Assembly: GCA_030680175.1 (NCBI GenBank)
Contig: JAUXWO010000030.1
Span: 62,001 to 126,000 of the forward strand
Length of the DNA: 64,000 bases
Direction of reading: 5' to 3'
Source: Vicinamibacterales bacterium
GTDB taxonomy: Bacteria > Acidobacteriota > Vicinamibacteria > Vicinamibacterales > UBA2999
Shown in pieces: positions 45,024 to 63,003 of the stretch (position 1 is the stretch's first letter; each line of letters starts with the position of its first letter). A program made the position numbers and the translations under genes. Below the pieces are notes generated by a model. It had not been told where the DNA came from. It did not search any database and saw only the letters and a list, made by a program, of their open reading frames with translations.

Positions 45024-45034
<11 letters not shown>

Positions 45035-46002: not shown

Positions 46003-46704
<702 letters not shown>

Positions 46705-46741
46705 CGTGGCTCCCTCAGTGATGTTCCGGTGATGTTCCCGA

Positions 46742-48010: not shown

Positions 48011-48076
48011 AACGTTGTTCGTTGCTTAGACGAGAGTGACGGCCCAAAAAGATGACATGCGGTTCGGTGAAGCTAT

Positions 48077-48092: not shown

Positions 48093-48200
48093 CGAGACTG
48101 CTCACTGCAACTGACTGATATAACGATGGTTGGCGCTGCGAGGTTCCGTGGGTTCACGGCGGCGTGTGTTCGATTACGGGACGCCACGACCGCGAGCGGA

Positions 48201-48226
48201 ACACGGCCGGTTCCGTTTGGCCGTGT
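48201..48226. promoter_or_regulatory. Inverted repeat ACACGGCC-N10-GGCCGTGT
   Basis: Perfect 8-bp arms (48201-48208 and 48219-48226) lie about 110 bases upstream of the possible -24 box. This is a distance typical of enhancer sites for NtrC-type activators. It could equally serve as an operator for the divergent region or form a hairpin. Confidence 0.35.
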
Positions 48227-48330
48227 GACCGAAATGTTACGCCCAGGTCGCCCGTTCGTCACGTCGCCCCCCTAATCCTCCGGCACCGGCCGCGCCGATG
48301 GCGCTGGCGCTCGGAGGCGACGCGGGGCGG

Positions 48331-49443
48331 CTACGCCCGTGGGCCGACGACCTCCCGGAAGAGTGCCGGTTCGGTCACGCCCTCCGAGATGATGGCCAGG
48401 GCCCGTGTCGCGGGGGAGATCGCGAGGGCCGCGCGCACGCCGGCCAGCGCGGCGTCCTCGCCGAGCGCCAGAAGCGCCCCGACCCCGGCGGCGCCCGAGG
48501 GGCCCGCCTCGATCGTCGGGTCCGCGCCCGGCGGACGCGCCAGCCGCCGCATCGCTTCGCACGCCCACCCGTCGTCGATCGCGAGGTAGGCATCGAACGA
48601 CGAGGCCACCACCGGGAACGCCGTCGTCGACACCTCGCCGCAGCGCAGGCCGCCCATGATCGTGTCGAGCGGTCCCGCAATGGCCACCGGGCGGCCGTGG
48701 CGGACGGACTGCTGCAGGCAGGCGGCGTCGAGCGGCTCCACGCAGACGAGGCGCGGACGCGGGAGGTCCTGCCTCAGCGCCCACCAGCTCGCGACCGCGC
48801 CGGCGAGTCCCCCGACGCCGCCCTGCACGACCACCAGGTCGGGCGGCGCCTCGCCCCACGCGGACGCGCATTCGTCCATCATGCGGGTGTAGCCCTGCAT
48901 GATGAGCCGCGGGATCTCGTCGTAGCCGGCCCAGCCGGTGTCGGACACCACCAGCCATCCGTGCCGCGCGGCCTCCTCGGCCGCGACGCGGACGGCATCG
49001 TCGTAGCTCCCGTTGATGCGGACGATGGTCGCGCCCTCACCGGCGATGGCGTCGGCACGCGCCTGGGCGACGCGTGCGCCGACGTAGACGCGCGCGGCGA
49101 GGCCCGCCTCGCGTGCCGCCCGGGCCACGGCGCGGCCGTGGTTGCCCTCGCTCGCGCAGACGATCGTGGTCCCCGCCTGCAGCCGGCCGGCGCGGGCGAG
49201 GGCGGCGAGGGCAAAGGGTGCGCCGAGGCCCTTGAACGCGGGCAGGCCGAAGCGCGCGGTCTCGTCCTTGAGCCAGAGCCCCCCGAGCCCGAGGGCCGCC
49301 CCAAGCGCCGGGGCGTCGCGGAGCGGCGTCGGCGGCAGGTCGGGCCGCCCCTCGAAGTACGCGCGGACGGCGGCCAGTTCCTCGCGGCTGAAGAGGCCGC
49401 GGGGCGCGAGGGGGGCGACGAGATGGGGGAGGCTTGGGCGCAT
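48331..49443 (-). CDS. Diaminopropionate ammonia-lyase
   Basis: A PLP enzyme that splits 2,3-diaminopropionate (D or L) into pyruvate and two ammonia. The 370 residues have the PLP Lys71 in PAFKGLGAP, the glycine loop SEGNHGRAVARAA, VVQGGVGGLAGAVASWW and the C-terminal GPSGAAGVGALL. These match the YgeX/DpaL branch of the tryptophan-synthase-beta family rather than threonine synthase. ATG 49443 is divergent from an N-acyl-D-amino-acid deacylase-like gene only 57 bases away, so the pair may share regulation. Confidence 0.87.
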   Translation of the reverse strand: MRPSLPHLVAPLAPRGLFSREELAAVRAYFEGRPDLPPTPLRDAPALGAALGLGGLWLKDETARFGLPAFKGLGAPFALAALARAGRLQAGTTIVCASEGNHGRAVARAAREAGLAARVYVGARVAQARADAIAGEGATIVRINGSYDDAVRVAAEEAARHGWLVVSDTGWAGYDEIPRLIMQGYTRMMDECASAWGEAPPDLVVVQGGVGGLAGAVASWWALRQDLPRPRLVCVEPLDAACLQQSVRHGRPVAIAGPLDTIMGGLRCGEVSTTAFPVVASSFDAYLAIDDGWACEAMRRLARPPGADPTIEAGPSGAAGVGALLALGEDAALAGVRAALAISPATRALAIISEGVTEPALFREVVGPRA

Positions 49444-49500
49444 GCGTCTGGGGTGATTGTGAGGACGGCTCTGCCGGGAACGAATTATAGTGGCCTTCGG

Positions 49501-51186
49501 ATGAGCCTGACCGTTCGCGCACGGCGTGTGGGTTCCTGCCTGCTGCTCTGGCTGCTGGCGGGCGTGGCGTGCCAGCCGCCGGTGCGCTACGACCTCGTCG
49601 TGCGCGGCGGCGCCCTCATCGACGGCACCGGCGCCGCGGCGCGGCCCGCCGACATCGGCATCCGCGGCGACCGTATCGTCGCGATCGGAGATCTGGGTGC
49701 GGTGCCCGCCGGCCAGACGATCAACGCCGCGGGCTTCGTCGTCGCCCCCGGCTTCATCGACGTGCAGGGCCAGTCGGGCACGACGCTGCTGCTCGATGGG
49801 CACGGCGAGAGCCATCTGCGACAGGGCATCACGAGCGAGGTGATCGGCGAGGCGAGTTCGCCGGCGTTCTGGACGCCGGAGACGGCGGACGCCGACCAGC
49901 TGCGCGCGTTCGGCCTCACGCACGACTGGACCGATCTGGACGGCTACTTCCGCCGCCTCGAGGAGCGCGGCATCGCCATTAACCTCGCCACGCTCGTGCC
50001 GGCGACGATGGCGCGCCGGCAGGTGATGGGGCTCGAGAACCGCGCGGCCACCGCCGAGGAACTGGCGGCGATGGAGGCGTTTGTCGACCAGGCGATGCGC
50101 GCCGGTGCGGTCGGGCTGTCGAGCGCGCTCATCTACCCGCCGGGATCGTTTGCGTCGACCGAGGAACTGATTGCGCTGGCCCGCGTCGCGGCGCGCCATC
50201 GCGGCATCTACGCCACGCACATCAGGGGCGAGAGCTTCAACCTGTTCGAGGCGCTCGACGAAGCGTTCCTGATCGGCCGCGAGGCGGCCGTGCCGGTCGT
50301 CATCTTTCACCTCAAGGTCGCGGCGCAGCGGAACTGGGGACGGATGGGCGAGGTGCTGGCGAAGTTCCGCGAGGCGGACACCGCCGGCCAGCGCGTCTCG
50401 GCGACGATGTATCCCTATACGGCCGGGGGCACGGGCCTGGCCGCCGCGCTGCCGCTCTGGGTGCAGGAGGGCGGGCGCGAGGCCATGATGGCGCGGCTTG
50501 CGGACCCCGGGGTGCGGACCCGGGCGCGCGCGGAGATCGAAACGACGATCGACGGCTGGGAGAACCTGATCCTCGCGTCGACGTTCGAGGGGATCCAGGT
50601 GGCGTCGGTGCCGCGCGAATCCGACGGGAGCGTGGTGGGGAAGCGCATCGCCGAGGTCGCGCGCGAGCGCGGCGAGGATCCCTGGGACACGTTCTTCGGG
50701 TTGCTCCTCTCCACGGGCGGGCGCGTCGGCGCGCTGTACCACATGATGAGCGAGGAGGACGTCGCGGCGGGGCTGCGTCTGGCCTCGGTCTCCATCGGCA
50801 CCGACGCGGCGGCGCTGCGCGCCGAGGGCGCGCTGGCGCAAGGGCAACCGCATCCGCGTGCGTATGGGACGTTCCCGCGCGTCCTCGGCAAGTATGTCCG
50901 CGAGGACGGCGTCCTCCACCTCGAGGAAGCGATCCGCCGGATGACGAGCGTCGCGGCCACGCAGTTCGGCCTCGTTCGTCGCGGGATCGTGCGGGAGGGG
51001 TACTTCGCGGACCTGGTCGTCTTCGATCCCGCGACCGTGGCCGATCGCGCCACGTTCGAGCGGCCCCATCAGTACCCCGTCGGGATCCACCACGTGATCG
51101 TCAACGGCGTGCCGGTGCTGACGCCGGAAGGCCTGACGGGCGCCCGCCCGGGCCGGGGCCTCTACGGCCGCGGCCGCGGCCGTTGA
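49501..51186 (+). CDS. N-acyl-D-amino-acid deacylase-like amidohydrolase, exported
   Basis: A 561-residue amidohydrolase of the D-aminoacylase type. A hydrophobic N-terminus ends at Cys24 (LLAGVACQPP), suggesting a lipoprotein, though the lipobox is not ideal. The barrel starts at APGFIDVQGQSGTTL. Here the usual HxH metal motif is replaced by Q89-G-Q91, as in a known GQS-type subgroup. The lysine strand (VVIFHLKVAAQRNWG), the Tyr-rich ATMYPYTAGGTGLAA and a late ADLVVFDP are present. It may deacylate D-amino-acid derivatives. ATG 49501 is divergent from the lyase gene. Confidence 0.82.
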   Translation: MSLTVRARRVGSCLLLWLLAGVACQPPVRYDLVVRGGALIDGTGAAARPADIGIRGDRIVAIGDLGAVPAGQTINAAGFVVAPGFIDVQGQSGTTLLLDGHGESHLRQGITSEVIGEASSPAFWTPETADADQLRAFGLTHDWTDLDGYFRRLEERGIAINLATLVPATMARRQVMGLENRAATAEELAAMEAFVDQAMRAGAVGLSSALIYPPGSFASTEELIALARVAARHRGIYATHIRGESFNLFEALDEAFLIGREAAVPVVIFHLKVAAQRNWGRMGEVLAKFREADTAGQRVSATMYPYTAGGTGLAAALPLWVQEGGREAMMARLADPGVRTRARAEIETTIDGWENLILASTFEGIQVASVPRESDGSVVGKRIAEVARERGEDPWDTFFGLLLSTGGRVGALYHMMSEEDVAAGLRLASVSIGTDAAALRAEGALAQGQPHPRAYGTFPRVLGKYVREDGVLHLEEAIRRMTSVAATQFGLVRRGIVREGYFADLVVFDPATVADRATFERPHQYPVGIHHVIVNGVPVLTPEGLTGARPGRGLYGRGRGR

Positions 51187-51192
51187 ACGCGT

Positions 51193-51330
51193 CACGTACA
51201 AACACGAAGGACACGTCCGCCTCTGCGGCCAGAGGCCGCTACGGCGTGACCTCGCCGAAGCTCGCCTGATACCGAGGCGAGCCGAGGCGGGAAGGCCAGA
51301 AAGACGCACGAAAAGCCATTCTCAACGTTC
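51193..51330. repeat. CACGAAG-type element, copy 3 (with 78-bp module)
   Basis: Starting 6 bases after the deacylase stop, CACGTACAAACACGAAGGAC is followed directly by the 78-bp module (51214-51291: CGTCCGCCTC to GAGGCGGG). CACGAAAAGCC-like sequence then follows. The module sits inside the CACGAAG arm, as in copy 2. Together with copy 4 it fills the 384-base convergent spacer, where no gene is visible. Confidence 0.78.
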
Positions 51331-51351
51331 GCAGCGACGGCGCCCGCTGAT

Positions 51352-51570
51352 CACGTACGCACAAACACGAAGGACACGAAGGCCACGAAGACCGACGAGA
51401 GGTTCATTTCGACGATCCGGTCTTCAACAAGATCCTGAAACGCAGTGACTCCTCGCGCGGGCCTTCCGGTCGCTTCGAACGTATCAATCCGGGGATCACG
51501 GTCCCGAACCGGATCGTTGAGAAGAAACGTCGTCGTGCGCCTTCGTGTCCTTCGTGTTTGTACGTGTCAG
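51352..51570. repeat. CACGAAG-type inverted-repeat element, copy 4
   Basis: The left arm (51361-51395) reads ACAAACACGAAGGACACGAA then GGCCACGAAGACC. The right arm (51537-51567) reads CGCCTTCGTGTCCTTCGTGT then TTGTACGTG and ends next to the amidohydrolase stop codon. The core of about 140 bases differs from copies 1 and 2 except for a short CCGGTCTTC similarity. It probably forms a long stem between two convergent genes. Confidence 0.78.
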
Positions 51571-52857
51571 TCAGCGCACGACGCGGACGCCGCCGATCCA
51601 GACGCTGTCGATCGCCCGCAGGTGCCGGATGTCGTCGAGCGGGTTGCGGTCGAGGACGATCAGGTCGGCGGTCACGCCGGGTTCGATGCTGCCGAGCTGT
51701 CCCGCCTTGTCCCAGCAGCGCGCCGCATCGCCCGTGGCCGAGACGATCGCCTGCATCGGGGTGAGGCCGGCTTCCACCATCATCTCGAGCTCGAGGTGCT
51801 CGAAGAATCCCTGGAAGCGCGCCGGCGGCCCGCTGTCGGTGCCGAAGGCGATGCGCACCCCGGCATCGGCGAGCCGCTTCAGGTTGCGCGTGGCCACGGC
51901 GAGCCCCGCCTTGTACTGCTGGCCCATCGCCGAGGCGGGGCTGGCCCGCAGCGCGGCCTGGCGCGCCGGGTCCGCGAGCTGCCGCGCGACCTCGCCGTCC
52001 ACGCCCTTCAGGAAGAACGGGTCGTTCACCCAGGGCGGCGTGCTGTCGTAGATGAACGTCGAGAGCTCGCGCGTGAGCGTGGGGCAGTAGCAGACGTCAC
52101 GCGCCTTCAGGTCACGGATGAAGCGGTCGTCGACGGGCACGTCGCGCACGCTGTGCCCGATGAACGCCGCGCCTGCGTCGAGCAGCGCCTGCGCGTCGGC
52201 GAGATAGAAGATGTGCACGGCGAGCGGCAGCCCGTGCGCGTTGGCGCGCTGCAGCACGGCGCGCCACGCCTCCGGCGGCATCTTCGGCGAGCGGCCGAGG
52301 TTGTCGTCGACGCGAATCTTGAGCAGGTCCGGTTTCCACGCGGCCACGCGGTCGGCGTGCGCGCCGGCCTCCTCGGCGGTGCGGCCCGTGATCACCTCGC
52401 CGCCGACGAACAGCCGCGCCCGGTTGAGCGTGGCGCCGCCCTGCTCGTTGCGGAGCACGAACCCGGCCTCGCGGTCGTCGCCGAGGCTGAACACGGTCGT
52501 CACGCCGTAGTCGGCGTAGGTGCGCAGCTGCCGTTCGAGGTTCTCGCGCGTGTAGAACGCCGGGTTCGACTGCAGGCCGTCGGTGGCCGCGACGTGCCCG
52601 TGGGCGTTGATGAGCCCCGGCATCAGCGTCTTGCCGGTCAGGTCGATCCGCGTGGCGCCTTCAGGGACGGGCACGGCGGCGGCGGCGCCGACGGTGCGGA
52701 TCTGCCCGTCGCGCACGATGACCGTGGCGTTCTCGAGCACGCGGCCGGTGCCGTCGATCACGCGGCCGCCGACGAAGGCCGTGGTCTGCGCGCCGGCCGG
52801 CGCGGCGATGCCGGCGGCCACGAGGAAGGCGAGGAGGACGTTCAGACGCATCTGCAT
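51571..52857 (-). CDS. Exported amidohydrolase (imidazolonepropionase-like)
   Basis: The 428-residue protein has a cleavable signal peptide (LLAFLVAAGIAAPAGA, cut near residue 23). The metal barrel includes the HxH site in MPGLINAHGHVAA (H86, H88), a central KIRVDDN segment, later His in GLPLAVHIFYL and FIGHSVRD, and the Asp in IAFGTDSGPP. It should hydrolyse a cyclic amide or peptide-like bond in the periplasm; the substrate is unknown. ATG 52857 or 52851 fits the signal peptide better than the longer open frame. Confidence 0.85.
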   Translation of the reverse strand: MQMRLNVLLAFLVAAGIAAPAGAQTTAFVGGRVIDGTGRVLENATVIVRDGQIRTVGAAAAVPVPEGATRIDLTGKTLMPGLINAHGHVAATDGLQSNPAFYTRENLERQLRTYADYGVTTVFSLGDDREAGFVLRNEQGGATLNRARLFVGGEVITGRTAEEAGAHADRVAAWKPDLLKIRVDDNLGRSPKMPPEAWRAVLQRANAHGLPLAVHIFYLADAQALLDAGAAFIGHSVRDVPVDDRFIRDLKARDVCYCPTLTRELSTFIYDSTPPWVNDPFFLKGVDGEVARQLADPARQAALRASPASAMGQQYKAGLAVATRNLKRLADAGVRIAFGTDSGPPARFQGFFEHLELEMMVEAGLTPMQAIVSATGDAARCWDKAGQLGSIEPGVTADLIVLDRNPLDDIRHLRAIDSVWIGGVRVVR

Positions 52858-52909
52858 GGGCCGAAGCGTAGCATCCGGGACGTGGCGTTGTCGCGGGGGC
52901 CGCACCTGC

Positions 52910-53020
52910 CTGGTGGAGTGTCGTCGACGATCCACGACCGGGCCTTCCGTTGGGCGGCCCGCGGAATCGCGGTTGAGCAGAGGCGCTGGTAGTACCTCTT
53001 CAGTCGAGACACTCCACTAG
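52910..53020. repeat. 111-bp terminal-inverted-repeat element, copy 2
   Basis: The unit starts CTGGTGGAGTGTCGTCGACG and ends TCGAGACACTCCACTAG. Its reverse complement aligns over the full 111 bp with 35554-35664 and about 13 differences. The final CTAG provides the stop codon (53017-53019) of the HDOD gene. The two copies are in opposite orientation. Confidence 0.85.
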
Positions 53021-53868
53021 TTCAGCAGCTGGCGCGCGACGTCGAAGAGGCCCGGGGCGTGCTGGTCCGTGCCGGCCAGCCACGCCTCGTCGAGTCCGAG
53101 CGCCTGGGCGGACGGGTCGTCGAGGAACGGGGCGTCGCTGGCCGTGCAGCCGAAGCCGTAGCGATGCGCGAGGCGGCTGGCGAGGGCCGTCACCATGGCG
53201 CGCCGCTGGAACCGCGGCGCGGTGTCCGGGGTGTGATGCCAGCGGACCGCCTCGCAGATCTCCTCGGGCAGCTCCCACCGGGCGAGAGCGTCGGCGCCGA
53301 CGGCGGCGTGCAGCTCGGCGATGAGCGCCTCGAGGGCTGCGTGGTCGGGCACCGGCCGTCCGGTCCGCGCGAGATCGTGCACCCGCTTCAGGATGACGAG
53401 CTTGCCCAGATCGTGCAGCAACCCGCAGAGGAAGGCCTCGTCGGCGTTGACGCCGGCGCGCTCGGCGACGAGGCGGGCCAGGTACGCGGCGCCGAGGCCA
53501 TGTTCGACGATCGACCGCCCCTGCCGTCCGTACACGAGCGGGTCGTGCAGGCGTGAGGCCACGCAGACGGTCACGACCAGGTTGCGCACGGCCGCCGTCC
53601 CCATGCGGACGATGGCCTCCTGCACCGTGCTGATGGGGTGCAGGGGCGCGCAGTAGGCCGAGTTGGCGAGGCCGAGCAGCCGCGCCGCGAGCACCTGATC
53701 CTTCGACGCCAGCGAGGCGATCTGCCAGACCGGCGTGTTGCCGCCGGCCACGGCCGCGATCACGCGCTGCGCCAGCGCCGGCAGCATCGGGATGCCGGCA
53801 TCAGGCGCTGCGAGCAGGGCGCGCAGGGCATCCGTGCCGTCGCCGGTCTCAGGAGCAGGTGCCGGCAC
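53017..53868 (-). CDS. HDOD-domain signalling protein
   Basis: A 283-residue protein occupied by an HDOD domain (about 20-225), related to HD phosphohydrolases but without the full metal site. Features are IASLASKDQVLAARLLGLAN, EAIVRMGTAAVRNLVV and FLCGLLHDLGKLVILKRV. HDOD proteins usually act in signalling with chemotaxis and motility systems. The CheX and CheY genes follow its upstream side on the same strand, in keeping with that. The last codon and stop lie inside the 111-bp repeat element. Confidence 0.87.
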   Translation of the reverse strand: MPAPAPETGDGTDALRALLAAPDAGIPMLPALAQRVIAAVAGGNTPVWQIASLASKDQVLAARLLGLANSAYCAPLHPISTVQEAIVRMGTAAVRNLVVTVCVASRLHDPLVYGRQGRSIVEHGLGAAYLARLVAERAGVNADEAFLCGLLHDLGKLVILKRVHDLARTGRPVPDHAALEALIAELHAAVGADALARWELPEEICEAVRWHHTPDTAPRFQRRAMVTALASRLAHRYGFGCTASDAPFLDDPSAQALGLDEAWLAGTDQHAPGLFDVARQLLN

Positions 53869-53877
53869 GGGGCCCTC

Positions 53878-54348
53878 CTACGTCTTCATCAGGATCAGTT
53901 CGACGTAGAGCGGGCTGTCCTTCATGTGGAAGGGCAGCAGCACGCGCTCCGCCTGGAACACGTATTTGGTGTAGAAGTCCGACCCGACCGTGACGGTCGG
54001 CACCGAGATGGCCCACGGGTCGCCGTGCGCCGCCATCTTCGTGCGGAACGACCCGGCGATCATGTTGGTGACCTCGCCGATCGCGTCCGGCATCTCGCCG
54101 TTGACCTCGTGGGCTTCCATCCCGAGCATCGCGGCGGCGATCTCGTTGGCCGCGTCCAGGGTGCTGTAGAAGGCCACGAGACCCTTTTCGGATCCCGTGA
54201 ACCCGACCGTGCCGACCACGTTCGACTTCGGCCGCAGCGCGTCGCCGACGATCGGCGCTTCCTCGCTCAGTTCGCGGGCCACCATCGTGTTGAACACCTC
54301 GTGGGTGGCCTCCACCAGGGTGCTGACCATCAAGTCCTGCATCATCAT
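53878..54348 (-). CDS. cheX: Chemotaxis phosphatase CheX
   Basis: A 156-residue CheX-family protein that removes phosphate from CheY. The active-site ExxN motif is present as GEVTNMIAG with E92 and N95. VGTVGFTGSEKGLVAFYSTL and PTVTVGSDFYTKYVF belong to the family fold. Only one ExxN motif is visible, as in dimeric CheX. The cheY gene lies 18 bases upstream, so the enzyme sits next to its likely substrate. Confidence 0.88.
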   Translation of the reverse strand: MMMQDLMVSTLVEATHEVFNTMVARELSEEAPIVGDALRPKSNVVGTVGFTGSEKGLVAFYSTLDAANEIAAAMLGMEAHEVNGEMPDAIGEVTNMIAGSFRTKMAAHGDPWAISVPTVTVGSDFYTKYVFQAERVLLPFHMKDSPLYVELILMKT

Positions 54349-54366
54349 GTCCTTTGCACACCGTTC

Positions 54367-54732
54367 CTACTTGGGAATCGCCGCTTCGATCTTTTCCTTG
54401 AAGGTGTCCGGGGTGAAGGGCTTCACGATGTAGTTGTTCACGCCCGCGCGCAGCGCCTCGACGATGTCGTCCTTGGCGGCGTTGGTCGTGACCATCAGCA
54501 CCGGCAGGTTCTTGACCTTGTCGACGGTCCGCAGGGCCCGGATGAACTCGATGCCGCTCATCTCGGGCATGTTCCAGTCCGTGATGACCATGTCGACGTC
54601 CGAGGCATTGAGGCGCTCCATGCCCTCGCGTCCGTTCGAGGCCTCGAGGATCTCCTGGTGCCCCAGTTTGTTCAGTGTGTTGATGATGATGCGGCGCATC
54701 GTCGACGAATCATCCACGACCAGAAAGCGCAT
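54367..54732 (-). CDS. cheY: CheY-like single-domain response regulator
   Basis: A 121-residue receiver domain. It has the acidic pair D7-D8, phospho-acceptor D52 in TDWNMPEMSG, the conserved Thr in LMVTTNAAKDD and Lys in NNYIVKPFTPDTF. It matches CheY proteins that bind the flagellar switch. ATG 54732 follows GGAGACGGAG, so the longer open frame to 54810 is not used. It is divergent from the kinase gene at 54942. A TGGCGCG-like box near 54767 is too poor to call a promoter. Confidence 0.92.
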   Translation of the reverse strand: MRFLVVDDSSTMRRIIINTLNKLGHQEILEASNGREGMERLNASDVDMVITDWNMPEMSGIEFIRALRTVDKVKNLPVLMVTTNAAKDDIVEALRAGVNNYIVKPFTPDTFKEKIEAAIPK

Positions 54733-54889
54733 AGCCGCTCCGTCTCCACTAGTGTCATACTGTCGCGCCACACGCGACGGTGTTCTGGGGCCTGCGAGGC
54801 GGCGGCGCACCGCCGCCGCTCCCGCGTCGCCACCGGACCGGCTCCGGCGGGATGCTTACCTAATCGGCGAGCCCCCGCGCGAACTTGAA

Positions 54890-54905
54890 CGGCGCGAACC
54901 TTGCA
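54890..54905 (+). promoter_or_regulatory. Sigma-54 promoter of the histidine kinase gene
   Basis: CGGCGCG-AACC-TTGCA has the -24 GG and -12 GC separated by exactly 10 bases, with a perfect TTGCA box. The expected start is near 54916, which leaves ATG 54942 with a 26-base leader and makes ATG 54921 unlikely. A sigma-54 activator gene lies 1 kb downstream. Confidence 0.65.
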
Positions 54906-54941
54906 CCGCAATCCGCCACTATGGCTGTGACCCATTCCGCT

Positions 54942-55688
54942 ATGACTGAGACCCCGACGCCCGCACCCGCCACGCTCACGTCCGACGAGGCCGACCGCCT
55001 CTACATCACCCTGAACCGGCTGTCGCTCTCGGGGCTGTTCGTCTCGGGCCTCGCGCACGAGCTGAACAATCCGCTGCAGGTCGTCAACGGCACAGTGGAG
55101 CTGCTGCTGGCCCGCCCGGACCTGCCCGCCGACATCGTGACGAAGCTGCAGCGCGTCGCGGCCCAGGTGGATCGGGCCAGCGGCACCCTCCAGGAGGTGC
55201 TGGCGTTCGTGCGCGACCGCACGTACACCGCCGTGCCCATCGACCTCCGCCGGCTGATCGAGCAGGCGGTGGGCCTGCGGCGCTATCCGCTCGCACGCGC
55301 CGGCATCACGGCCATCGTCGAGCCGCCGCCGCCCGGGGTGGCGATGCTGCACGTGCGGCCCACCGACATCGTGCAGGCCTTCCTGAACCTGATCATCAAC
55401 GCCGAGGCCGCGATGGCCGGGCGCCAGGGGGCGGAACTGCACGTGCAGTGCGAGGTCGGCGGGGAGGTGGCGCGGGTGCGGGTGTCGGACAACGGACCGG
55501 GCCTGCCGGCCGAGTCGCAGGAGCGGCTGTTCACCCCGTTCTTCTCGACGCACGGCGTCGAGTGCTCAGGGGGCCTCGGCCTGCCCGCCGCCGCCGCGAT
55601 CATCCGAAGGGCGGGCGGCCGCCTCTGGGCCGAAGACGTGCCGGCGGGGGCGAGCTTCGTCGTCGAGTTGCCGATCAAGGGGCGGTGA
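54942..55688 (+). CDS. Soluble sensor histidine kinase
   Basis: A kinase of about 248 residues without transmembrane segments or a clear sensor domain. Phospho-acceptor H39 lies in SGLAHELNNPLQVVNGTVEL. The ATPase domain has NLIINAEAAMAG (N box), VSDNGPGLPA (G1) and GGLGLPAAAAIIRRAGG (G2). Such minimal kinases control flagellar sigma-54 regulators (FlrB, FleS). It is convergent with an NtrC-type activator gene, its likely partner. ATG 54942 is chosen over 54921 from the sigma-54 promoter position. Its stop codon lies inside a heptad array. Confidence 0.87.
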   Translation: MTETPTPAPATLTSDEADRLYITLNRLSLSGLFVSGLAHELNNPLQVVNGTVELLLARPDLPADIVTKLQRVAAQVDRASGTLQEVLAFVRDRTYTAVPIDLRRLIEQAVGLRRYPLARAGITAIVEPPPPGVAMLHVRPTDIVQAFLNLIINAEAAMAGRQGAELHVQCEVGGEVARVRVSDNGPGLPAESQERLFTPFFSTHGVECSGGLGLPAAAAIIRRAGGRLWAEDVPAGASFVVELPIKGR

Positions 55689-55821
55689 GCGGTGGACGGT
55701 GGGCGGTGAACGGTGAACGGTGGACGGTGCATGCTCGTGCACGGTCCCGGGCATTCGGTACTAAGTGAACGGTTCACCGTTCACCGCCCACCGCCCACCG
55801 CCCACCGTGGACCGTCCACCG
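55683..55821. repeat. Convergent inverted pair of 7-bp arrays (CGGTGAA / TTCACCG)
   Basis: Seven heptamers of the CGGTGAA/CGGTGGA type (55683-55731) face seven of the TTCACCG/CCCACCG type (55773-55821). The units are reverse complements, so the two arrays can pair across a 41-base loop. The first heptamer contains the kinase stop codon (55686-55688), and the second array ends 9 bases from the regulator's stop. It fills this convergent junction and may terminate both transcripts. Confidence 0.9.
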
Positions 55822-55830
55822 TCGCCCGCG

Positions 55831-57297
55831 CTAGTGCATCGCCTGCATGTTCGGCGCGTCGATGTCGAGGCGGTGAATCTTGTCGATGAGCGTGGTGCGG
55901 CTCAGCCCGAGCAGGCGGGCGGCCTGGCGCTTGTTGCCTCGGGTCTTCTCGAGTCCCTTCAGGATCAGGTCGCGCTCGAGCTGTGAGACGACCGACACGA
56001 AGCTGATGCCTTCGTCGGGGATGTTCACCGGCGTGCGCATGCCGGCGCGCTCGGGGGTCGTCATGTCGTCGGGCAGCACCGACAGGGCGATCTCGGGCTC
56101 GCGGCCCGACATGGCGACGGCGTGTTCGATCGCGTTCTCGAGCTGGCGGATGTTGCCGGGCCACGCGAAGCCCATCAGGCACCGCAGCGCCTCCTGCGAA
56201 ATCGTCTTGTGGGCCAGGCCGTTCGACTTGCAGGACTTCTGCACGAAATGGCGCGCCAGCAGCGCGATGTCCTCCTTGCGGTCGCGCAGCGGCGGCAGCG
56301 TGATCGGAATCACGTTCAGGCGGTAATAGAGGTCCTCGCGGAACGTCCCGTCCTGGACCAGCTTCTTGAGGTCGCAGTTCGAGGCCGCGATGACGCGCGT
56401 GTCGAACTTGATGGGCTTGGATCCCCCGACCCGCTCGATCTCGCGTTCCTGCAGCGCGCGCAGCAGCTTGGTCTGCAGCGACATCGGCATCAGCGCCACT
56501 TCGTCGATGAAGAGCGTGCCGCGGTGGGCCTGCTCGAAGCGGCCCATCCGGTCGTTGATGGCGCCGGTGAACGCCCCCTTCGTGTGGCCGAACATCTCGG
56601 CCTCGGCGAGGCCATCCGGGATCGCCGCGGCATTGAAGGCCACGAACCGCTCGCTCGCGCGCGCGCTGTTGTGGTGCAGCGTCCGGGCGATCAGCTCCTT
56701 GCCGGTGCCGGTCTCGCCGTGAATCATCACGGTGCTGTTCATCGGCGCGACGAGCTCGAGCGTCTGGAAGATCTGCTGCATCGGTCCGCTCTGCCCGATG
56801 ATGTTGTCGAAGCGGTACCGCTCGCGCAGCTGGGCGCGGAGTTCGGCGTTCTCGGCGCGCAGGCGCGGCTCGTTGACGAAGGCGCGCAGCTCCTGGGTCA
56901 GCACCGACAGCTGGAACGGCTTCAGCAGGAAGTTCTTGGCGCCGCGCCGGATGGCCGACACCGCCTCCTGCACCCCGCCAAATCCGGTGATGACAATCGC
57001 GGCGATCTGGGGGTATCGTTCAAGCGCCGCGTCGAGCACCTCCATGCCGTCCCCATCCGGCAGGCGGAGGTCGACGACGATGGCGTCATAGGCGAAGCCC
57101 TTGATGCGTTCGTGCGCTTCCGCGGCCGTCGGCGCCTGGGCCACGGCAAACCCGCCCGCTTCGAGCGACTCGGCGATCGTCAACCGCAGGTCTTCCTCGT
57201 CTTCGATCACCAGCACGCAGGGCTGTCCGCGTCGGCTGGTCGACACACGGGACGCGAACGTCGCGCTTGTCTCGTCGGGCTGGGGGAGCGTCGCCAT
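55831..57297 (-). CDS. Sigma-54-dependent response regulator (FlrC/NtrC type)
   Basis: A 488-residue activator. The receiver domain carries phospho-acceptor D76 (AIVVDLRLPDGDG). The AAA+ domain has Walker A HGETGTGKELIA and a canonical loop GHTKGAFTGAINDRMGRF. A Fis-type HTH closes the protein (RQAARLLGLSRTTLIDKIHR). It probably activates sigma-54 promoters of the flagellar genes (flgB candidate at 58147-58162) with the kinase encoded next to it. ATG 57297 is used; TTG 57303 is in frame. Confidence 0.92.
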   Translation of the reverse strand: MATLPQPDETSATFASRVSTSRRGQPCVLVIEDEEDLRLTIAESLEAGGFAVAQAPTAAEAHERIKGFAYDAIVVDLRLPDGDGMEVLDAALERYPQIAAIVITGFGGVQEAVSAIRRGAKNFLLKPFQLSVLTQELRAFVNEPRLRAENAELRAQLRERYRFDNIIGQSGPMQQIFQTLELVAPMNSTVMIHGETGTGKELIARTLHHNSARASERFVAFNAAAIPDGLAEAEMFGHTKGAFTGAINDRMGRFEQAHRGTLFIDEVALMPMSLQTKLLRALQEREIERVGGSKPIKFDTRVIAASNCDLKKLVQDGTFREDLYYRLNVIPITLPPLRDRKEDIALLARHFVQKSCKSNGLAHKTISQEALRCLMGFAWPGNIRQLENAIEHAVAMSGREPEIALSVLPDDMTTPERAGMRTPVNIPDEGISFVSVVSQLERDLILKGLEKTRGNKRQAARLLGLSRTTLIDKIHRLDIDAPNMQAMH

Positions 57298-57323
57298 AGT
57301 CAAGGATTCTCTCGAGTTCGGTT

Positions 57324-57336
57324 CACGAAGTTCGTG
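57324..57336. promoter_or_regulatory. Palindrome CACGAAGTTCGTG between divergent regulator genes
   Basis: A 13-bp palindrome with 6-bp arms lies in the 77-base spacer between the sigma-54 regulator (minus) and the response regulator (plus). It may be an operator for one of them. It also shares the CACGAAG string of the dispersed repeat family, so it could be a small remnant of that. Confidence 0.4.
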
Positions 57337-57374
57337 GGTGTTGCCGATTACCAGGTGACGGCCGGCCGTCTTGT

Positions 57375-57953
57375 GTGACCCTCACAGCAACCCATATGCC
57401 ACCGACGGATCTGTCATCGCCGCCGTTCGAGGTTCTCGTCGTGGACGACGAACCGGACATCCGGGAACTGCTCACCGAGTACTTCCGGGAGCGGCACTAT
57501 ACCGTATCCACCGCCGCCGACGGCCGCGCGGCGATTGCGGCCATCGAACGGGCGCCGACCCGCTATGGCCTGGTGTTGACCGACCTGCAGTTGCCCGGCG
57601 CCGACGGCCTGGCCGTGCTCTCCGCCGCCAAGGCCGCCAATCCTTCCGTCTACGTCGTCATCGTCACCGGCTTTGCATCGCTCGATTCGGCGATTCAAGC
57701 CGTCCGCCTCGGCGCCTACGACTACCTGACCAAGCCGTTCTCACTCGGACAGATTGAGGTCGTTACCCGGCGCATCTTAGATCGGCTGGCGCTCGACGCG
57801 GAGAACCGCCAGCTGACGAGGCAGGTCGGCGGCCGCGGCGGCGGGGACGTGGCGGGATCGCTCGCGACGCGACTCGATGTGATCGAGGCACGCCTCGCTC
57901 GGATCGAAGGCACGTTGCGGGAACTCGCCCAGCGTCCGCCGCAAGGCCGCTGA
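57375..57953 (+). CDS. Response regulator with helical C-terminus
   Basis: The 192 residues contain a receiver domain (D24, D25, phospho-acceptor D70 in LVLTDLQLPGADGL, Lys in YDYLTKPFSLGQ). About 60 C-terminal residues predicted as helix/coiled coil follow (TRLDVIEARLARIEGTLREL), with no DNA-binding domain. It may signal through protein contact. The start is GTG 57375 or ATG 57396. It is divergent from the sigma-54 regulator gene and precedes the flgB leader region. Confidence 0.85.
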   Translation: MTLTATHMPPTDLSSPPFEVLVVDDEPDIRELLTEYFRERHYTVSTAADGRAAIAAIERAPTRYGLVLTDLQLPGADGLAVLSAAKAANPSVYVVIVTGFASLDSAIQAVRLGAYDYLTKPFSLGQIEVVTRRILDRLALDAENRQLTRQVGGRGGGDVAGSLATRLDVIEARLARIEGTLRELAQRPPQGR

Positions 57954-57996
57954 GAATCGTAGGTCATCTCACCAACCAAGACAACCCGCCGTCATC

Positions 57997-58016
57997 GATG
58001 TCGGCCTGGCGACATC
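57997..58016. promoter_or_regulatory. Inverted repeat GATGTCG-N6-CGACATC upstream of flgB
   Basis: Perfect 7-bp arms lie about 130-150 bases upstream of the flgB sigma-54 promoter candidate. Spacing and symmetry suit an activator-binding site of the NtrC type. It could also be the terminator hairpin of the preceding response regulator gene, whose stop is 44 bases away. The rest of the 282-base spacer shows no gene. Confidence 0.45.
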
Positions 58017-58146
58017 CGGGCCGCGTGTGAGATCGTCCGACCGTGTGACGCCCCTCCGACGCCCGGTCTCCGCGCCGTCGCTCGCGTGAACCGCCCGTCC
58101 GACCCGTTTCCCGCGACAGCACCCGCATTCCCGCATGGATCCGCCA

Positions 58147-58162
58147 GGGCACCGATCTTGCT
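58147..58162 (+). promoter_or_regulatory. Sigma-54 promoter of the flagellar flgB operon
   Basis: GGGCACC-GATC-TTGCT matches the sigma-54 consensus with GG and GC exactly 10 bases apart and a perfect TTGCT box. The expected start is near 58173, leaving about 62 bases of leader before the flgB ATG. Sigma-54 control of middle flagellar genes is common, and a FlrC-like activator is encoded next door. Confidence 0.7.
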
Positions 58163-58235
58163 CTCCTGCTGTGCGGACCGCGCCCCCACGAGCAATCGAC
58201 ATCCTGGGGCCACGCGTGAATTCACGGGTGAGCAC

Positions 58236-58628
58236 ATGAGTGAAATCAGCGACGCGAGTTTGATTGCCGCTCTGCGGCGGACGTTGGCGAGTTCGGTGGC
58301 GCGTCAGAACGTGGCCGCGGGCAACCTGGCGAATCTGAACACCCCGGGCTACAAGGCTCGTGAGTCGCGCTTCGACGATGCCCTGCAGGAGCAGTTGACG
58401 GCGGGCGCGCGGCTGAAGGCCACCGACGCCGAGCACCTGAAGGGCACCCAGCCAGGCATTCCAACCGAGGAGGTCCGCGGCCTGCCGACGCGGCGTGATG
58501 GCAACAACGTCCAGCTTGACCGCGAGCTGCTGCAGATGACGAGCGCGTCCGGCGAGTTCCAGCGCGCGCAGACCGCGCTCTCGGCGAAGTTCCGCCTGGT
58601 GCGTTACGCCATCAGCGAAGGGAGATAG
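58236..58628 (+). CDS. flgB: Flagellar basal-body rod protein FlgB
   Basis: A 130-residue proximal rod subunit. The conserved N-terminus RQNVAAGNLANLNTPGYKAR (with the ANxxTPGY-like signature) and the C-terminal helix DRELLQMTSASGEFQRAQTA form the coiled coil of the rod. ATG 58236 follows GGGTGAGC; longer in-frame extensions look non-coding. It is exported by the flagellar type III system. flgC begins 3 bases after its stop. Confidence 0.92.
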   Translation: MSEISDASLIAALRRTLASSVARQNVAAGNLANLNTPGYKARESRFDDALQEQLTAGARLKATDAEHLKGTQPGIPTEEVRGLPTRRDGNNVQLDRELLQMTSASGEFQRAQTALSAKFRLVRYAISEGR

Positions 58629-58631
58629 GCG

Positions 58632-59063
58632 ATGTCGACCCTGTCAGCCGCCGTCAGCGCCGCCGCGAGCGCGCTCAACGCCGAGCGCACGCGCATCGAA
58701 GCGGCCGTCTCGAACATCGCCAACGCCGAGTCCACGCGCGGACCGGATGGCACCACCTATCGCCGGCGCGACGTCGTGCTCGGCGCCGACAGCGGCACGT
58801 CCTTCGAATCGGCGCTCGGCCGGGCCACGGCCACCGGGGTCAAGGTGGTGGCCGTCCTCGAGGACCAGGAAGCCCCGCGGATGCGGTTCGAACCGCAGCA
58901 TCCGGATGCCGACGAGGAGGGGTACGTGGCGATGCCGAACGTGGACCCGGCGCAGGAAACCGTGGACATGCTGAGCGCGGCGCGTGCCTACCAGGCCAAT
59001 CTCACCGCCATCGGCCTGCTGCGCGACCTGCTGCAGCGGTCGCTCGAGCTCGGCAGGGGCTAG
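58632..59063 (+). CDS. flgC: Flagellar basal-body rod protein FlgC
   Basis: A 143-residue rod subunit. RIEAAVSNIANAESTRGPDG at the N-terminus and EGYVAMPNVDPAQETVDMLS then AARAYQANLTAIG at the C-terminus are the family signatures. The length is normal. It follows flgB by 3 bases. The next spacer, before fliE, consists almost entirely of GCGAACA heptads. Confidence 0.92.
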   Translation: MSTLSAAVSAAASALNAERTRIEAAVSNIANAESTRGPDGTTYRRRDVVLGADSGTSFESALGRATATGVKVVAVLEDQEAPRMRFEPQHPDADEEGYVAMPNVDPAQETVDMLSAARAYQANLTAIGLLRDLLQRSLELGRG

Positions 59064-59078
59064 GGTCCTGGAACCGTA

Positions 59079-59177
59079 GCGAACCGCGAACAGCGAATAG
59101 CGAACCGCGAACAGCGAATAGCGAACAGCGAACAGCGAATCAGCGAACAGCGAATAGCGAACAGCGAACAGCGAACC
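59079..59177. repeat. 7-bp tandem repeat array (GCGAACA/GCGAATA type) abutting the fliE ATG
   Basis: Fourteen units of GCGAACC, GCGAACA or GCGAATA occupy the spacer, with one 8-base unit (GCGAATCA at 59135-59142). The last unit GCGAACC touches the fliE ATG at 59178. There is no purine-rich ribosome site. The unit is the same as that before sua5 (34229-34353). Confidence 0.92.
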
Positions 59178-59483
59178 ATGGCGATTGAACAGATTGGGCG
59201 GAGCGGGCCTGGGGTGCCGGGTGCCGGGAAGGCTGGCGGGACCGGGGGCGTCACCGGGGGCGGCGAGGGCGGGTTCGAGTCGTCGCTGAAGCGGCTCGTC
59301 GAGAGCGCCGCCGCGTCGGGTGCCGAGGCCAATACGGCCGTGAGCGACATGCTCTCGGGCACCGGCGAGGTCCACGACGCGATGATCGCCCTCCAGCGCG
59401 CGGAACTCACGCTGCAGCTGACCATGCAGGTGCGCAACAAGCTGGTCAACGCCTACGCCGAGATCATGCGGATGCCGGTCTGA
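59178..59483 (+). CDS. fliE: Flagellar hook-basal body protein FliE
   Basis: A 101-residue protein linking the MS ring to the rod. The first 35 residues are Gly-rich and variable. The conserved C-terminal part reads EVHDAMIALQRAELTLQLTM then QVRNKLVNAYAEIMRMPV. The ATG directly follows a heptad array without a Shine-Dalgarno sequence, although the protein is essential for the rod. Translation may rely on coupling from flgC, whose stop is 115 bases upstream, or on an unstructured leader. Confidence 0.9.
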   Translation: MAIEQIGRSGPGVPGAGKAGGTGGVTGGGEGGFESSLKRLVESAAASGAEANTAVSDMLSGTGEVHDAMIALQRAELTLQLTMQVRNKLVNAYAEIMRMPV

Positions 59484-59547
59484 TGACGCGCCATCCTGAC
59501 GCCCCCCTGACGCCCCGGCCGGTTGCCAGCCTGCGAGGACCCCGCGC

Positions 59548-61206
59548 GTGAATCCGGAGCACCTGCTCGACAAGGGGAAGGCCGCGCTCGGCGGGCTCTC
59601 CACGCCGCAACTGGCGACGCTCGCCGCGACGTTCGTGCTCGTCGTGAGCCTCGTCATCGGCGGCGCCTACTACATGGGGGCGCCGGCGTGGGCGCTGCTG
59701 TTCTCCGACATGGAGCCCGATGCGGCCGCCCATGTCGTCGAGCAGCTGAAGGCGCAGAAGGTCGAGTACCGGATCGACGGCGGCGGGCGGTCGATTCGTG
59801 TGCCGGCCGACCGCGTCGATGAACTGCGGCTGCAGTTCGCCTCGACGGGCCTGCCGAGCTCGGGGCGCATCGGGTTCGAGATCTTCGACCGGACGCAGTT
59901 TGGCGCGACCGAGTTCCTCGAACAGGTGAACTACCGGCGCGCCCTCGAAGGCGAGATCGCGCGCACCATCACCTCCATCCAGGAAGTCGAGAACGCGCGT
60001 GTGCATATCGCCATGGCCAAGGACTCGCTGTTCACCGAACGCGAGCAGCCGGCCAAGGCCTCCGTCATCCTGAAGCTGCGGTCGAACCGGCCGCTGGCGT
60101 CCCTCACCGTCACCGGCATCACCAATCTCGTGGCCGCCGCCGTCGAAGGCCTTCGTCCCGACGCCGTCGTCGTGCTCGACACCGAGGGGCGGCCGCTGGC
60201 GCGGCCGACCGAGGATGGCGACGAGCCACTCGGCAGCGCGCAGAACGAGCGGCAGCAGAAGCTCGAGAAAGAACTGTCCACCCGCGTCGTGGCGCTGCTC
60301 GAGCCGGTCGTCGGCTTCGAGCGCGTGAAGGTGAATGTCGCGCTGCGGCTGCGGTCCGAGAGCGAGGAAGCGACCGAGGAGCGGTGGGATCCCGAGAACC
60401 CCGTCGTCCGCAGCCGCCAGATCACGAGCGACCTTGGGCCGGGACTCGCCGCGGGCGGCGTCGCCGGGGCGCGTGGCAACCTGCCGCCGCCGGCCGCGCA
60501 GCCCGGTGACGATCCGCCCCCGCCCCCACCGGCCGCCCTGGCTGCCACGGCCCAGGCCTCGCGGTCGGCCGAGACGGTCAATTACGAGATCAGCAAGGTC
60601 GTGCGGCACACCCTCCGCCCGCGCGGCGACGTCGCGCGGATGACGGTGGCCGTGATGCTCGATCACCAGTCGGTGCGCGAGACCGCGGAGGATGGGACCG
60701 TGACGACCGTGGCGCGGCCCCGCCCCGCGCAGGAACTGCGGAAGATCGAGGGCCTGGTGGCCGCGGCCGTGGGCCTCGACACCACGCGGGGCGACCTGCT
60801 GACGGTGGAGACCATCCCGTTCTCGTCGCCGTTTGACGAAGAGATGGCGCCGCCGACGGTGCTCGAGCGTGTGACGCCGCATGTCAAGGACGCGAGCCGG
60901 ATCCTGGGCGTCCTGCTGCTGGCGCTGCTGGCGGTGTTCGGCGTGGTCCGGCCGGTCATGCGCCGGTCGCTCGGACCCGCGAGCAGTGCGCCTGAACCGG
61001 TGCTGCCCACCGTGGCGACGCTGCCGAAGACCGTCGAGCAGCTCGAGGGCGAGATCGAAGCGCAGCTGCTCGCCGATGCCCAGGACGCGATGGGCGACAA
61101 GCGGCGCGTCCCGGTGCTCACCAAGCACTTGAGCGGCCTCACGGCCAAGGACCCCGAGGGCGCGGCCCGTCTGATCCGGACGTGGCTCGCGGAGGAGCGG
61201 AAGTAG
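59548..61206 (+). CDS. fliF: Flagellar MS-ring protein FliF
   Basis: A 552-residue ring protein with an N-terminal membrane helix (about 24-46), the ring-building PRK-like domains (ALLFSDMEPDAAAHVVEQLK, then FASTGLPSSGRIGFEIFDRT), and a low-complexity Pro/Ala loop near 310-335. A second transmembrane helix lies at about 449-467. The cytoplasmic tail should bind FliG. GTG 59548 starts the frame 64 bases after fliE. Length is typical. Confidence 0.93.
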   Translation: MNPEHLLDKGKAALGGLSTPQLATLAATFVLVVSLVIGGAYYMGAPAWALLFSDMEPDAAAHVVEQLKAQKVEYRIDGGGRSIRVPADRVDELRLQFASTGLPSSGRIGFEIFDRTQFGATEFLEQVNYRRALEGEIARTITSIQEVENARVHIAMAKDSLFTEREQPAKASVILKLRSNRPLASLTVTGITNLVAAAVEGLRPDAVVVLDTEGRPLARPTEDGDEPLGSAQNERQQKLEKELSTRVVALLEPVVGFERVKVNVALRLRSESEEATEERWDPENPVVRSRQITSDLGPGLAAGGVAGARGNLPPPAAQPGDDPPPPPPAALAATAQASRSAETVNYEISKVVRHTLRPRGDVARMTVAVMLDHQSVRETAEDGTVTTVARPRPAQELRKIEGLVAAAVGLDTTRGDLLTVETIPFSSPFDEEMAPPTVLERVTPHVKDASRILGVLLLALLAVFGVVRPVMRRSLGPASSAPEPVLPTVATLPKTVEQLEGEIEAQLLADAQDAMGDKRRVPVLTKHLSGLTAKDPEGAARLIRTWLAEERK

Positions 61207-61208
61207 CC

Positions 61209-62231
61209 ATGGCCGTTCTCACCAGCCCGGCCGGCCTGTCCGGCGCCCGGAAGGCGGCCATCATCGCCGTCATGCTCGGCAACGAGGCATCGTCACAGAT
61301 CTTCAAGCACCTGCGCGAGGACGAGATCGAGCACGTGGCCCGCGAGATGGCCAGCCTCGGCGCCGTGCCCGTCGAGATGAGCGAGCAGGTGCTCGACGAG
61401 TTCCACCAGATGGTGCTCGCCAGCGGCTACATGGCCTCGGGCGGCGTCGAGTACGCGCGGCAGGTGCTGGACAAGTCGCTCGGGCCGGATTCGGCGCGCC
61501 GCATCCTCGACCGCGTGATGCGGTCATTCGAGTCGACGATCGGCTTCACGGCGCTCGAGAAAGCCGACCCGCAGCAGCTGTCGAAGTTCATCCTGTCGGA
61601 GCACCCGCAGACGATCGCGCTGATTCTCGCGCACCTGCAGTCGAACAACGCCGCGCAGCTCATCACGCTGCTGCCCGATGAGCTGCGTGCCGACGTGCTC
61701 CAGCGCATGGCCCGGCTCGACGAGATCTCCCCCGACGTCATCCGGCGCATCTCATCGGTGATCGAACAGCGCCTGAAGAACCTGGGCGGCGGACAGCACG
61801 AGTCCTACGGCGGTGTGCGGGCCGTGGCGGAACTCCTGAACCGGCTGGAGCGCACCGTGAGTCAGCCCGTCCTCGATACCATCGAGGGCGAGCAGCCCGA
61901 CCTGGCCGTCTCGATTCGGAACCTGATGTTCGTCTTCGACGACCTGGCCCAGGTGGACGACAACGGCCTGCGCGAGATCATCCAGCGCGCCGACAAGAAG
62001 GCCCTGGTCATCGCGCTCAAGGGCGCGACCGAGCAGATTCGCGGGCGCTTCTTCCAGAACATGTCCAAGCGCGCGGGCGACATGCTCCGCGAGGAGATGG
62101 ACGTGCTCGGCGCCGTCCGGCTGCGCGACGTGGAGAAGGCGCAGCAGGAGGTGGTGGCCATCGCGCGCAAGCTCGAGGAAGAGGGCGTCATCGTGACCGG
62201 GGCGGCCGCGGGCGAGGCCTATGTCGTCTAG
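61209..62231 (+). CDS. fliG: Flagellar motor switch protein FliG
   Basis: A 340-residue switch protein that couples torque to rotation direction. The N-terminal part binds FliF. The EHPQ motif lies in LSEHPQTIALILAHLQSNNA in the middle domain. The C-terminal domain has the charged torque helix region (DDNGLREIIQRADKKALVIA, then LKGATEQIRGRFFQNMSKRA). ATG 61209 lies 2 bases after the fliF stop. The end overlaps fliH by 11 bases. Confidence 0.95.
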   Translation: MAVLTSPAGLSGARKAAIIAVMLGNEASSQIFKHLREDEIEHVAREMASLGAVPVEMSEQVLDEFHQMVLASGYMASGGVEYARQVLDKSLGPDSARRILDRVMRSFESTIGFTALEKADPQQLSKFILSEHPQTIALILAHLQSNNAAQLITLLPDELRADVLQRMARLDEISPDVIRRISSVIEQRLKNLGGGQHESYGGVRAVAELLNRLERTVSQPVLDTIEGEQPDLAVSIRNLMFVFDDLAQVDDNGLREIIQRADKKALVIALKGATEQIRGRFFQNMSKRAGDMLREEMDVLGAVRLRDVEKAQQEVVAIARKLEEEGVIVTGAAAGEAYVV

Positions 62232-63003
62232 CCAGTTCACGCGGGCCACCCGCTTCAGCGCCCCGGACCACATCGAGGTGCTGGGCTTCGACTGGGGCGG
62301 GGTGGTGATGCCGCCGCGTCCGCCCGTCGTGGACGCCACCGGCGCCGCCCGCCCGCCCGCGGTGACGGGGGTGCCCGCCGTCGAGCACCACCTGGCCCAC
62401 GGGGACGCACGGCCGGGAGGCGAGCCGGCGCCGCCGGGGGACGCGGCGCCCGGGGGCGCGGGCGACCCGGCGCATCTCGCCGCGCTCGAACGGGACGCCT
62501 TTGCCAAGGGCTACGCGCAGGGCGAGAGGGCCGGCCTCGAAGCCGGCCGCACGCGCGCCGACGCGATGCTGCGCCGCATGGCCGCCACGCTCGACGAGTT
62601 GGGCACGCTGCGGGCCTCGATGATCCACGCCACCGAGCAGCAGATGGTGCAGCTCGCCCTGGCGATCGCCCGCCGCATCCTGCGCCGCGAGGCCACCCTC
62701 GACGGCGACCTCGTCGTCGCGATGGCGCGGGTTGCGCTGGACCGGCTGGGCGAGCGCACGCCGGCGACCGTCCGGCTCAACCCCGAGGATCTCGCCGGCA
62801 CGGGCGCCGAGGAGGGCGCGCTCGGCAGTTCGTTCGTGACCGTCGTCGCCGATGCGAGCCTGAGCCGCGGCCAGTGCAAGGTCGAATCCGAGTTCGGCTT
62901 CATCGACGCGGGTGTCGACGCGCAGTTCGAGCAGATCGCGCACGCCCTGGTGGGGGAGACGACGCCGGCGCCCGAGATGGCCGTGGTGCCGCATGCCCGC
63001 TGA
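62221..63003 (+). CDS. fliH: Flagellar assembly protein FliH
   Basis: A 260-residue regulator of the export ATPase FliI. It has a proline/glycine-rich N-terminus (about 25-85), then a helical stretch with Gly-spaced residues ([20 protein letters not shown]) like the GxxxG repeats of FliH. The C-terminal domain includes [20 protein letters not shown] and [20 protein letters not shown]. It overlaps fliG by 11 bases and fliI by 11 bases, which suggests coupled translation. Confidence 0.87.

Follow-up and report, generated by a model that had tools for sequence, protein, structure and literature searches.

Two tandem arrays of a seven-base unit face each other, as reverse complements, between a histidine kinase gene and a sigma-54 regulator gene of a Vicinamibacterales bacterium, and this raises the question of how such a pair arose and whether it ends the transcripts that run toward each other there. 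In the window (the whole stretch of 64,000 nucleotides analyzed), the kinase gene (HisKA and HATPase_c domains) occupies positions 54942 to 55688 on the plus strand, with its longest open reading frame starting at 54885, and it faces the gene for an NtrC-type sigma-54 response regulator (Response_reg, Sigma54_activat, and HTH_8) at 55831 to 57216 on the minus strand, whose longest open reading frame extends to 57303; gene ends were taken from an ad hoc gene finder. The kinase stop codon, TGA at 55686 to 55688, lies inside the first heptad, and the second array stops 7 bp short of the regulator gene; the junction is thus convergent, in agreement with an earlier, sequence-only reading. The arms begin at or near the stop codons of the flanking genes, placing a stable predicted hairpin downstream of the stop.

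Period-7 array calls placed 6.7 copies at 55682/55683 to 55729 and 7.0 copies at 55772/55775 to 55823. Array 1 (55682 to 55729, plus strand), which overlaps the kinase stop codon and forms the 5′ arm of the hairpin, consists of CGGTGRA-type units reading CGGTGAG, CGGTGGA, CGGTGGG, CGGTGAA, CGGTGAA, CGGTGGA, and CGGTGca. Array 2 (55772 to 55823), the 3′ arm, carries the unit of array 1 on the minus strand, where it reads CGGTGGA, CGGTCCA, three times CGGTGGG, and twice CGGTGAA. The seven plus seven units claimed earlier are thus right in copy number but not in exact identity, since the units are degenerate and strict CGGTGRA or TTCACCG copies number fewer than seven per side. Without gaps, 55683 to 55721 pairs with 55769 to 55807 over 39 nt, at 92% complementarity and with 47 nt between, and longer arms of 52 and 47 nt are 81% paired; the loop between the arrays (55730 to 55771) is partly foldable itself, and its right end prolongs the pairing of arm 2. 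The predicted RNA fold of the junction reaches −104.6 kcal/mol on the plus strand (z = −6.4) and −105.7 kcal/mol on the minus strand (z = −7.5), and none of 200 shuffles was equally stable in either case. Array calls, the 39-nt pairing, and the folds of both strands together confirmed the two facing inverted arrays proposed at 55683 to 55821, and with both RNA strands folding far better than shuffles, the long hairpin is possible as well. A search of 54500 to 57500 against Rfam returned four matches only, all of them microRNA models lying on the hairpin with scores far below gathering, and a known RNA was rejected as an explanation.

The focal arrays are no solitary device but one of many repeat-built intergenic hairpins in this bacterium. 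The window holds 12 period-7 arrays, versus none in each of 20 first-order random sequences, and the other periods from 4 to 15 gave 0 to 2 arrays each, except for 10 at the multiple 14. Sixty stretches of the 4.98-Mb genome, a draft of 143 contigs, amounted to 1.241 Mb and contained 128 period-7 arrays, along with 33 period-8 and 47 period-9 arrays and 0 to 3 for periods 4, 5, 6, 10, and 11. A count at a lower threshold, which covered the first 864 kb, placed 90 of 96 arrays in classified intergenic gaps, 3 in genes, and 3 at stretch edges. Five unit families, GTGGGTA, GTGAACG (the focal one), GCGAACA, GCCGATA, and GGGGATC, make up most arrays, and 5 of the 118 array entries in gaps belong to other units. 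Of 149 genomes from the order, 3 contained the pattern CGGTGRACGGTGRACGGTG, with 43 matches here and 7 in the other two together, and this distribution marks the repeat class as lineage specific. Apart from these counts, period-8 arrays numbered 1 and 0 in two sampled relatives, against the 33 found here.

Elsewhere in the window, GTGGGTA-family arrays at 45698 to 45801 (plus) and 45950 to 46002 (minus) are the left and right arms of an inverted pair between two minus-strand genes, the right arm abutting the next gene. The remaining arrays, all on the plus strand, include a GTGGGTA-family array at 9629 to 9765 that abuts a gene end, a GCTGATC array at 1337 to 1382, a GCGAACC array at 18642 to 18667 starting at a gene end, two neighboring arrays of TTGCAGA and GCGAACA units at 34171 to 34345, and a GGGGATC array at 40653 to 40684, 3 bp past a gene end. 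At 59079 to 59176, a GCGAACA-family array (listed as two adjacent ones) fills the gap between a flgC-like gene and fliE; it has a single orientation and lies within a flagellar gene run.

In this genome, long inverted repeats are concentrated where genes converge. We scored each intergenic gap of 25 to 400 bp by its best ungapped inverted repeat and took a score of at least 16 as long. In the 1.241-Mb sample, this score was reached in 26 of the 86 gaps between convergent genes, in 22 of 358 between co-directional genes, and in 1 of 102 between divergent genes (26/86 convergent versus 23/460 for all other gaps; Fisher P = 1.3 × 10−10), and in none of the randomized gaps (0/258, 0/1074, and 0/306, or 0/1638 in total). 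When gaps were restricted to 80 to 250 bp, the corresponding counts were 19/46, 16/188, and 0/60. Among heptad-bearing gaps, 10 of 15 convergent ones scored at least 16, compared with 9 of 75 others (P = 2.8 × 10−5), and with the exception of locus L062, all of these 10 convergent gaps had the stem on their heptads. Facing heptad arrays were present in 6 of 65 convergent gaps of at least 60 bp, where about 1 would be expected if gene ends were independent. Inverted pairs fell in convergent gaps in 6 of 9 cases for GTGGGTA, 1 of 1 for GTGAACG (the focal pair), 1 of 3 for GGGGATC, and 1 of 8 for GCCGATA; GTGGGTA and GTGAACG combined gave 7 of 10, the focal pair among them. Pooled relatives reached a score of 16 in 3 of 50 convergent, 5 of 175 co-directional, and 2 of 60 divergent gaps, and a family-wide rule was rejected, as the samples of G034 and G008 (220 kb each) lacked significance, with 0/17 and 2/15 convergent gaps. 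The convergent preference is therefore specific to this genome and to some unit families.

The convergent stems are made of differing repeats, namely heptads, a nonamer (CACGAAGG), and others. The nonamer, which comes chiefly in inverted pairs where genes converge, was seen at 4653 to 4802 and 51365 to 51557 of the window and at L062, L076, L087, L093, L202, and L216; where a gap bears it, both orientations are present in 11 of 12 convergent, 5 of 12 co-directional, and 0 of 1 divergent gaps, and a stem like its pairs also occurs in another genus (L101). It is possibly a sharper case of the heptad phenomenon.

The facing arrays had been held to require either inversion of one array or retention for pairing, a choice that proved too narrow. 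Four of the five unit families have same-family inverted pairs, and polarity is constant within each: one polarity is shared by 9 of 9 GTGGGTA, 3 of 3 GGGGATC, and 1 of 1 GTGAACG pairs, and the opposite one by 8 of 8 GCCGATA pairs. These counts use unit families, an earlier orientation by base composition having been ambiguous for GCCGATA-type units. Where a single gene edge lay no more than 15 nt from an array, the array was scored as pointing away from or toward the gene, with ratios of 15:1 for GTGGGTA, 6:0 for GGGGATC, 2:1 for GTGAACG, and 6:16 for GCCGATA, and no clear direction rule for GCGAACA (6:9). A sense-strand rule, in which the unit would always be sense behind its gene, was rejected, as co-directional gaps held 44 sense versus 33 antisense arrays, with orientation set by base composition in this count. 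Unit order was not shared by the two arms beyond shuffles in 23 pairs (1 with P < 0.05; combined P = 0.45), nor in the focal pair (P = 0.35, shuffle test). Since the arms share no unit order, a recent simple inversion is unsupported as their source, and one polarity per family disfavors simple inversion further; selection for pairing alone does not predict a fixed polarity either, since a hairpin works either way round.

Relatives were compared at the kinase orthologues of six genomes, with 39 to 51% identity; a related-locus search with the kinase alignment gave mainly distant relatives and served only for clade placement. The orthologous junction of G027, a member of another genus, carries an inverted heptad pair, but the whole unit differs, being GTTGACA; this was the outcome there of the check in relatives that the earlier reading had proposed. 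The kinase 3′ junction of G028 has a hairpin with a 15-bp stem, that of G036 a long hairpin beside a different neighbor gene, and the orthologous junctions of G030, G022, and G015, with gaps of 3, 41, and 17 bp, have no notable hairpin. The G036 hairpin (L117, about 1415 to 1532) is nearly perfect, separates the kinase orthologue from the gene that converges on it, and has a TCCGGCTTTAGCCGGA-type core, similar to a core in the convergent stem of L236.

Among 194 syntenic gene pairs, neither genome had an array in 174, one had it in 18, and both had it in 2, the latter with differing units. The array-bearing gap was the longer in 17 of those 18 comparisons, by a median of 73 bp, but the 18 represent about 12 distinct junctions, and the G027 loci had been picked for their arrays. 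Array-free pairs whose longer gap was at least 42 bp (n = 101) likewise exceeded their partners by a median of 70 bp, so the length excess is not special to arrays and does not prove insertion.

G027 was surveyed by a search for the GTTGACA pattern, followed by analysis of 21 loci, one per contig with a match (L271 to L290 and L119); the reversed-pattern control carried no information, since reversing GTTGACA yields a rotation of the same unit. GTTGACA heptads come mainly as facing pairs between adjacent genes, and these loci contain 17 close inverted GTTGACA pairs in a single orientation with loops of 11 to 44 nt, and an eighteenth (L287) was seen in pattern matches only. Ten pairs are co-directional (for one of them, at L281, the left neighbor gene is 1.4 kb off), 3 are convergent, and 4 are unclassifiable, and most of the classified pairs have a gene no more than about 30 bp from the arms on either side. 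Loop similarity is weak but above five mononucleotide shuffles (mean, 6.27 versus 5.39 to 5.71), with 16 loop pairs scoring at least 9 versus 1 to 6 in the shuffles.

The reading that best joins these observations, which we put forward tentatively and at slightly less than even chances, is that of a lineage-specific, heptad-armed hairpin repeat that is kept at convergent ends as a transcript-end barrier without a U tract. The focal hairpin would belong to a dispersed class of hairpins built from two tandem arrays of a 7-base unit in inverted orientation, and it would have come to this junction after the split from the sampled relatives, probably as added DNA, its arms then lengthening, shortening, and drifting one unit at a time. 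The repeat would spread for reasons of its own, not as a terminator, with the paired form kept or gained above chance at the convergent junctions of this genome. Because same-family arrays pair in many registers, the stem would outlast changes in copy number. The transcript of either strand would present a 5′ array-loop-3′ array stem beginning at the stop codon, and its most likely job would be to slow read-through toward the opposing gene, as a sequence-tolerant barrier, while Rho, which is encoded in this genome, or a block to 3′ exonuclease would do the rest. Rho has two full-length matches here that exceed the cut-off of its family (G000:C69:39065-40306 and C98:77625-78857), and G008 also has two.

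It is possible, if somewhat unlikely, that the repeat is neutral, with slippage expanding heptads in free sequence and inverted pairs being tolerated at convergent ends and purged from operons and promoters. Divergent gaps are indeed poor in arrays per kilobase and in inverted repeats, arm unit order shows no co-evolution, and array-bearing gaps gain no more length than array-free ones. Polymerase slippage has also been suggested for the heptamer excess known in bacteria, in an account that offers it only as a hypothesis and describes the functional role as still to be elucidated (PMC4692102). However, arrays of any kind are equally common in convergent (15/86) and co-directional (64/358) gaps, so that pairs look gained at convergent ends, not purged elsewhere, and slippage by itself leaves polarity unfixed.

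The earlier reading took the hairpin for a two-way terminator, and in the strict sense of an inverted pair selected at this junction to stop RNA polymerase from both sides, we regard this as unlikely. The folds of both strands and the convergent enrichment speak for that part of the claim, as do the sizeable hairpins of differing sequence at 4 of 7 kinase 3′ junctions examined (window, G027, G028, and G036), against which stand the three orthologous junctions without one. No intrinsic-terminator T-tract directly follows the focal stem on either strand, and a T-rich flank, defined as at least 5 T in the 9 bases right after the stem, accompanied 1 of 38 convergent stems of score at least 12 on the plus side and 1 of 38 on the minus side. 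Terminator-like sites in 44001 to 64000 numbered 2, versus 4.9 in shuffles. A U-less stem may still act as a terminator, since an RNA-seq study of 13 genomes holds, in its account, that poly-U is not necessary (PMC8355165). The co-directional pairs of G027 weigh against the claim more generally. At five loci examined there, the flanks include a nuoG-like and a DsbD_TM gene, a FlgK-like gene with one that has a flagellin domain, and both subunits of exonuclease VII; the genes of the first pair are separated by 0 and 12 bp in two relatives, and those of the second by 3 bp in this genome. Because flgK-flgL and xseA-xseB are usual operons and a strong terminator between such co-directional genes of G027 would be harmful, the repeat is unlikely to be a terminator everywhere.

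We consider it very unlikely that the hairpin is a REPIN-like mobile element that depends on a Y1 (RAYT-like) transposase acting in trans. Its inverted arms, dispersed intergenic copies, and fixed polarity would suit such an element, and Y1_Tnp genes exist, with 3 copies here and 1 in G027, but in the flanking sequence examined, heptad arrays are near neither the former (L291, L209, and L078) nor the latter (L294), and other repeats adjoin the three genes of this genome, two of them having GGGGTCAG beside them and the third being flanked by GGCACCGTG on either side. Heptad arrays were also absent beside one Y1_Tnp gene each of G034 and G008 (L292 and L293; G008 has 6). REPINs as described by Bertels and Rainey (2011; PMC3116915) are likewise dispersed inverted pairs that form hairpins, but each of their arms is a palindromic REP sequence, identified as a 16-mer next to RAYT genes, whereas the arms here consist of degenerate 7-mers in tandem, vary in copy number, and lie away from the Y1_Tnp genes checked, with loops that are mostly unlike. 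As a separate observation, GGGGTCAG or GGCACCGTG with Y1_Tnp forms REP/RAYT-like pairings at L291, L209 (17392 to 18430), and L078 (18179 to 18963).

A repair scar analogous to head-to-head telomere fusions, in which a templated or slipping end-extension activity would have added 7-base repeats to both 3′ ends of an intergenic break before joining, would account, if true, for the period of 7 shared by unlike units, for a polarity that is fixed in each family, for arms that start at the gene edges of both sides regardless of gene direction, and for loops that differ and a unit order that the arms do not share, but we hold it to be extremely improbable given the lack of an RVT_1 match in this genome, the several coexisting unit families, and a length gain not above that of array-free gaps. 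RVT_1 reverse transcriptases numbered 0 in this genome, 1 in G027, 2 in G034, and 0 in G008, and a reverse-transcriptase origin of the arrays was rejected.

The heptad-armed repeat with its proposed barrier role has precedents in two known systems, one for its layout, clearly so, and one for its co-option. The layout is that of the GGGNATC heptamers of Xanthomonas and Nostoc as described by Rehm et al. (2015; PMC4692102), who report for Xanthomonas inverted pairs "with convergent orientation" that number 70 in Xcc and 75 in Xac, and arrays lying nearer the ORF on their own 5′ side irrespective of gene strand. Like those, the present repeats have a period of 7, are mostly intergenic and dispersed, are scarce between divergent ORFs, and form pairs of a single orientation with arrays pointing away from the nearest ORF (GTGGGTA and GGGGATC; GCCGATA is opposite). 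They differ from that description in that the focal unit is CGGTGRA, with GGGGATC arrays elsewhere in the genome, that several unit families coexist, one of opposite polarity, that stems are enriched at convergent genes, and that another genus has a different unit at the orthologous junction.

The precedent for co-option was described by Kingsford et al. (2007; PMC1852404), in whose account inverted pairs of DNA uptake sequences act as terminators in Neisseria and Pasteurellaceae; an abundant short repeat is likewise used there as inverted pairs in one preferred configuration. Those pairs are described as enriched in tail-to-tail gaps of Neisseria meningitidis, and heptad pairs show the same in this genome but not in G027, where 3 of 13 classifiable pairs lie in such gaps. 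The uptake-sequence configuration supplies A/T tails around a fixed motif of about 9 to 11 nt in the published description, whereas the present arms are tandem heptad arrays, and T-tracts are nearly absent. TAACTGA direct repeats of Beggiatoaceae, Cyanobacteria, and Bacteroidetes (MacGregor, 2015; PMC4679880) resemble the arrays as many-copy intergenic heptamer tandem repeats, but they are described as one unit, mostly just upstream of start codons in the main genome, with a single indirect repeat. Our literature search, in its wider part judged by the titles of 15 of 99 papers, found no paper on intergenic heptamer tandem repeats in Acidobacteria.

Whatever produced the arrays, the fixed polarity of each family is a constraint on any model. 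With several unit families in this genome, a unit of its own in G027, and junctions both with and without arrays, the origin of the repeat and its use can be tested apart from each other.
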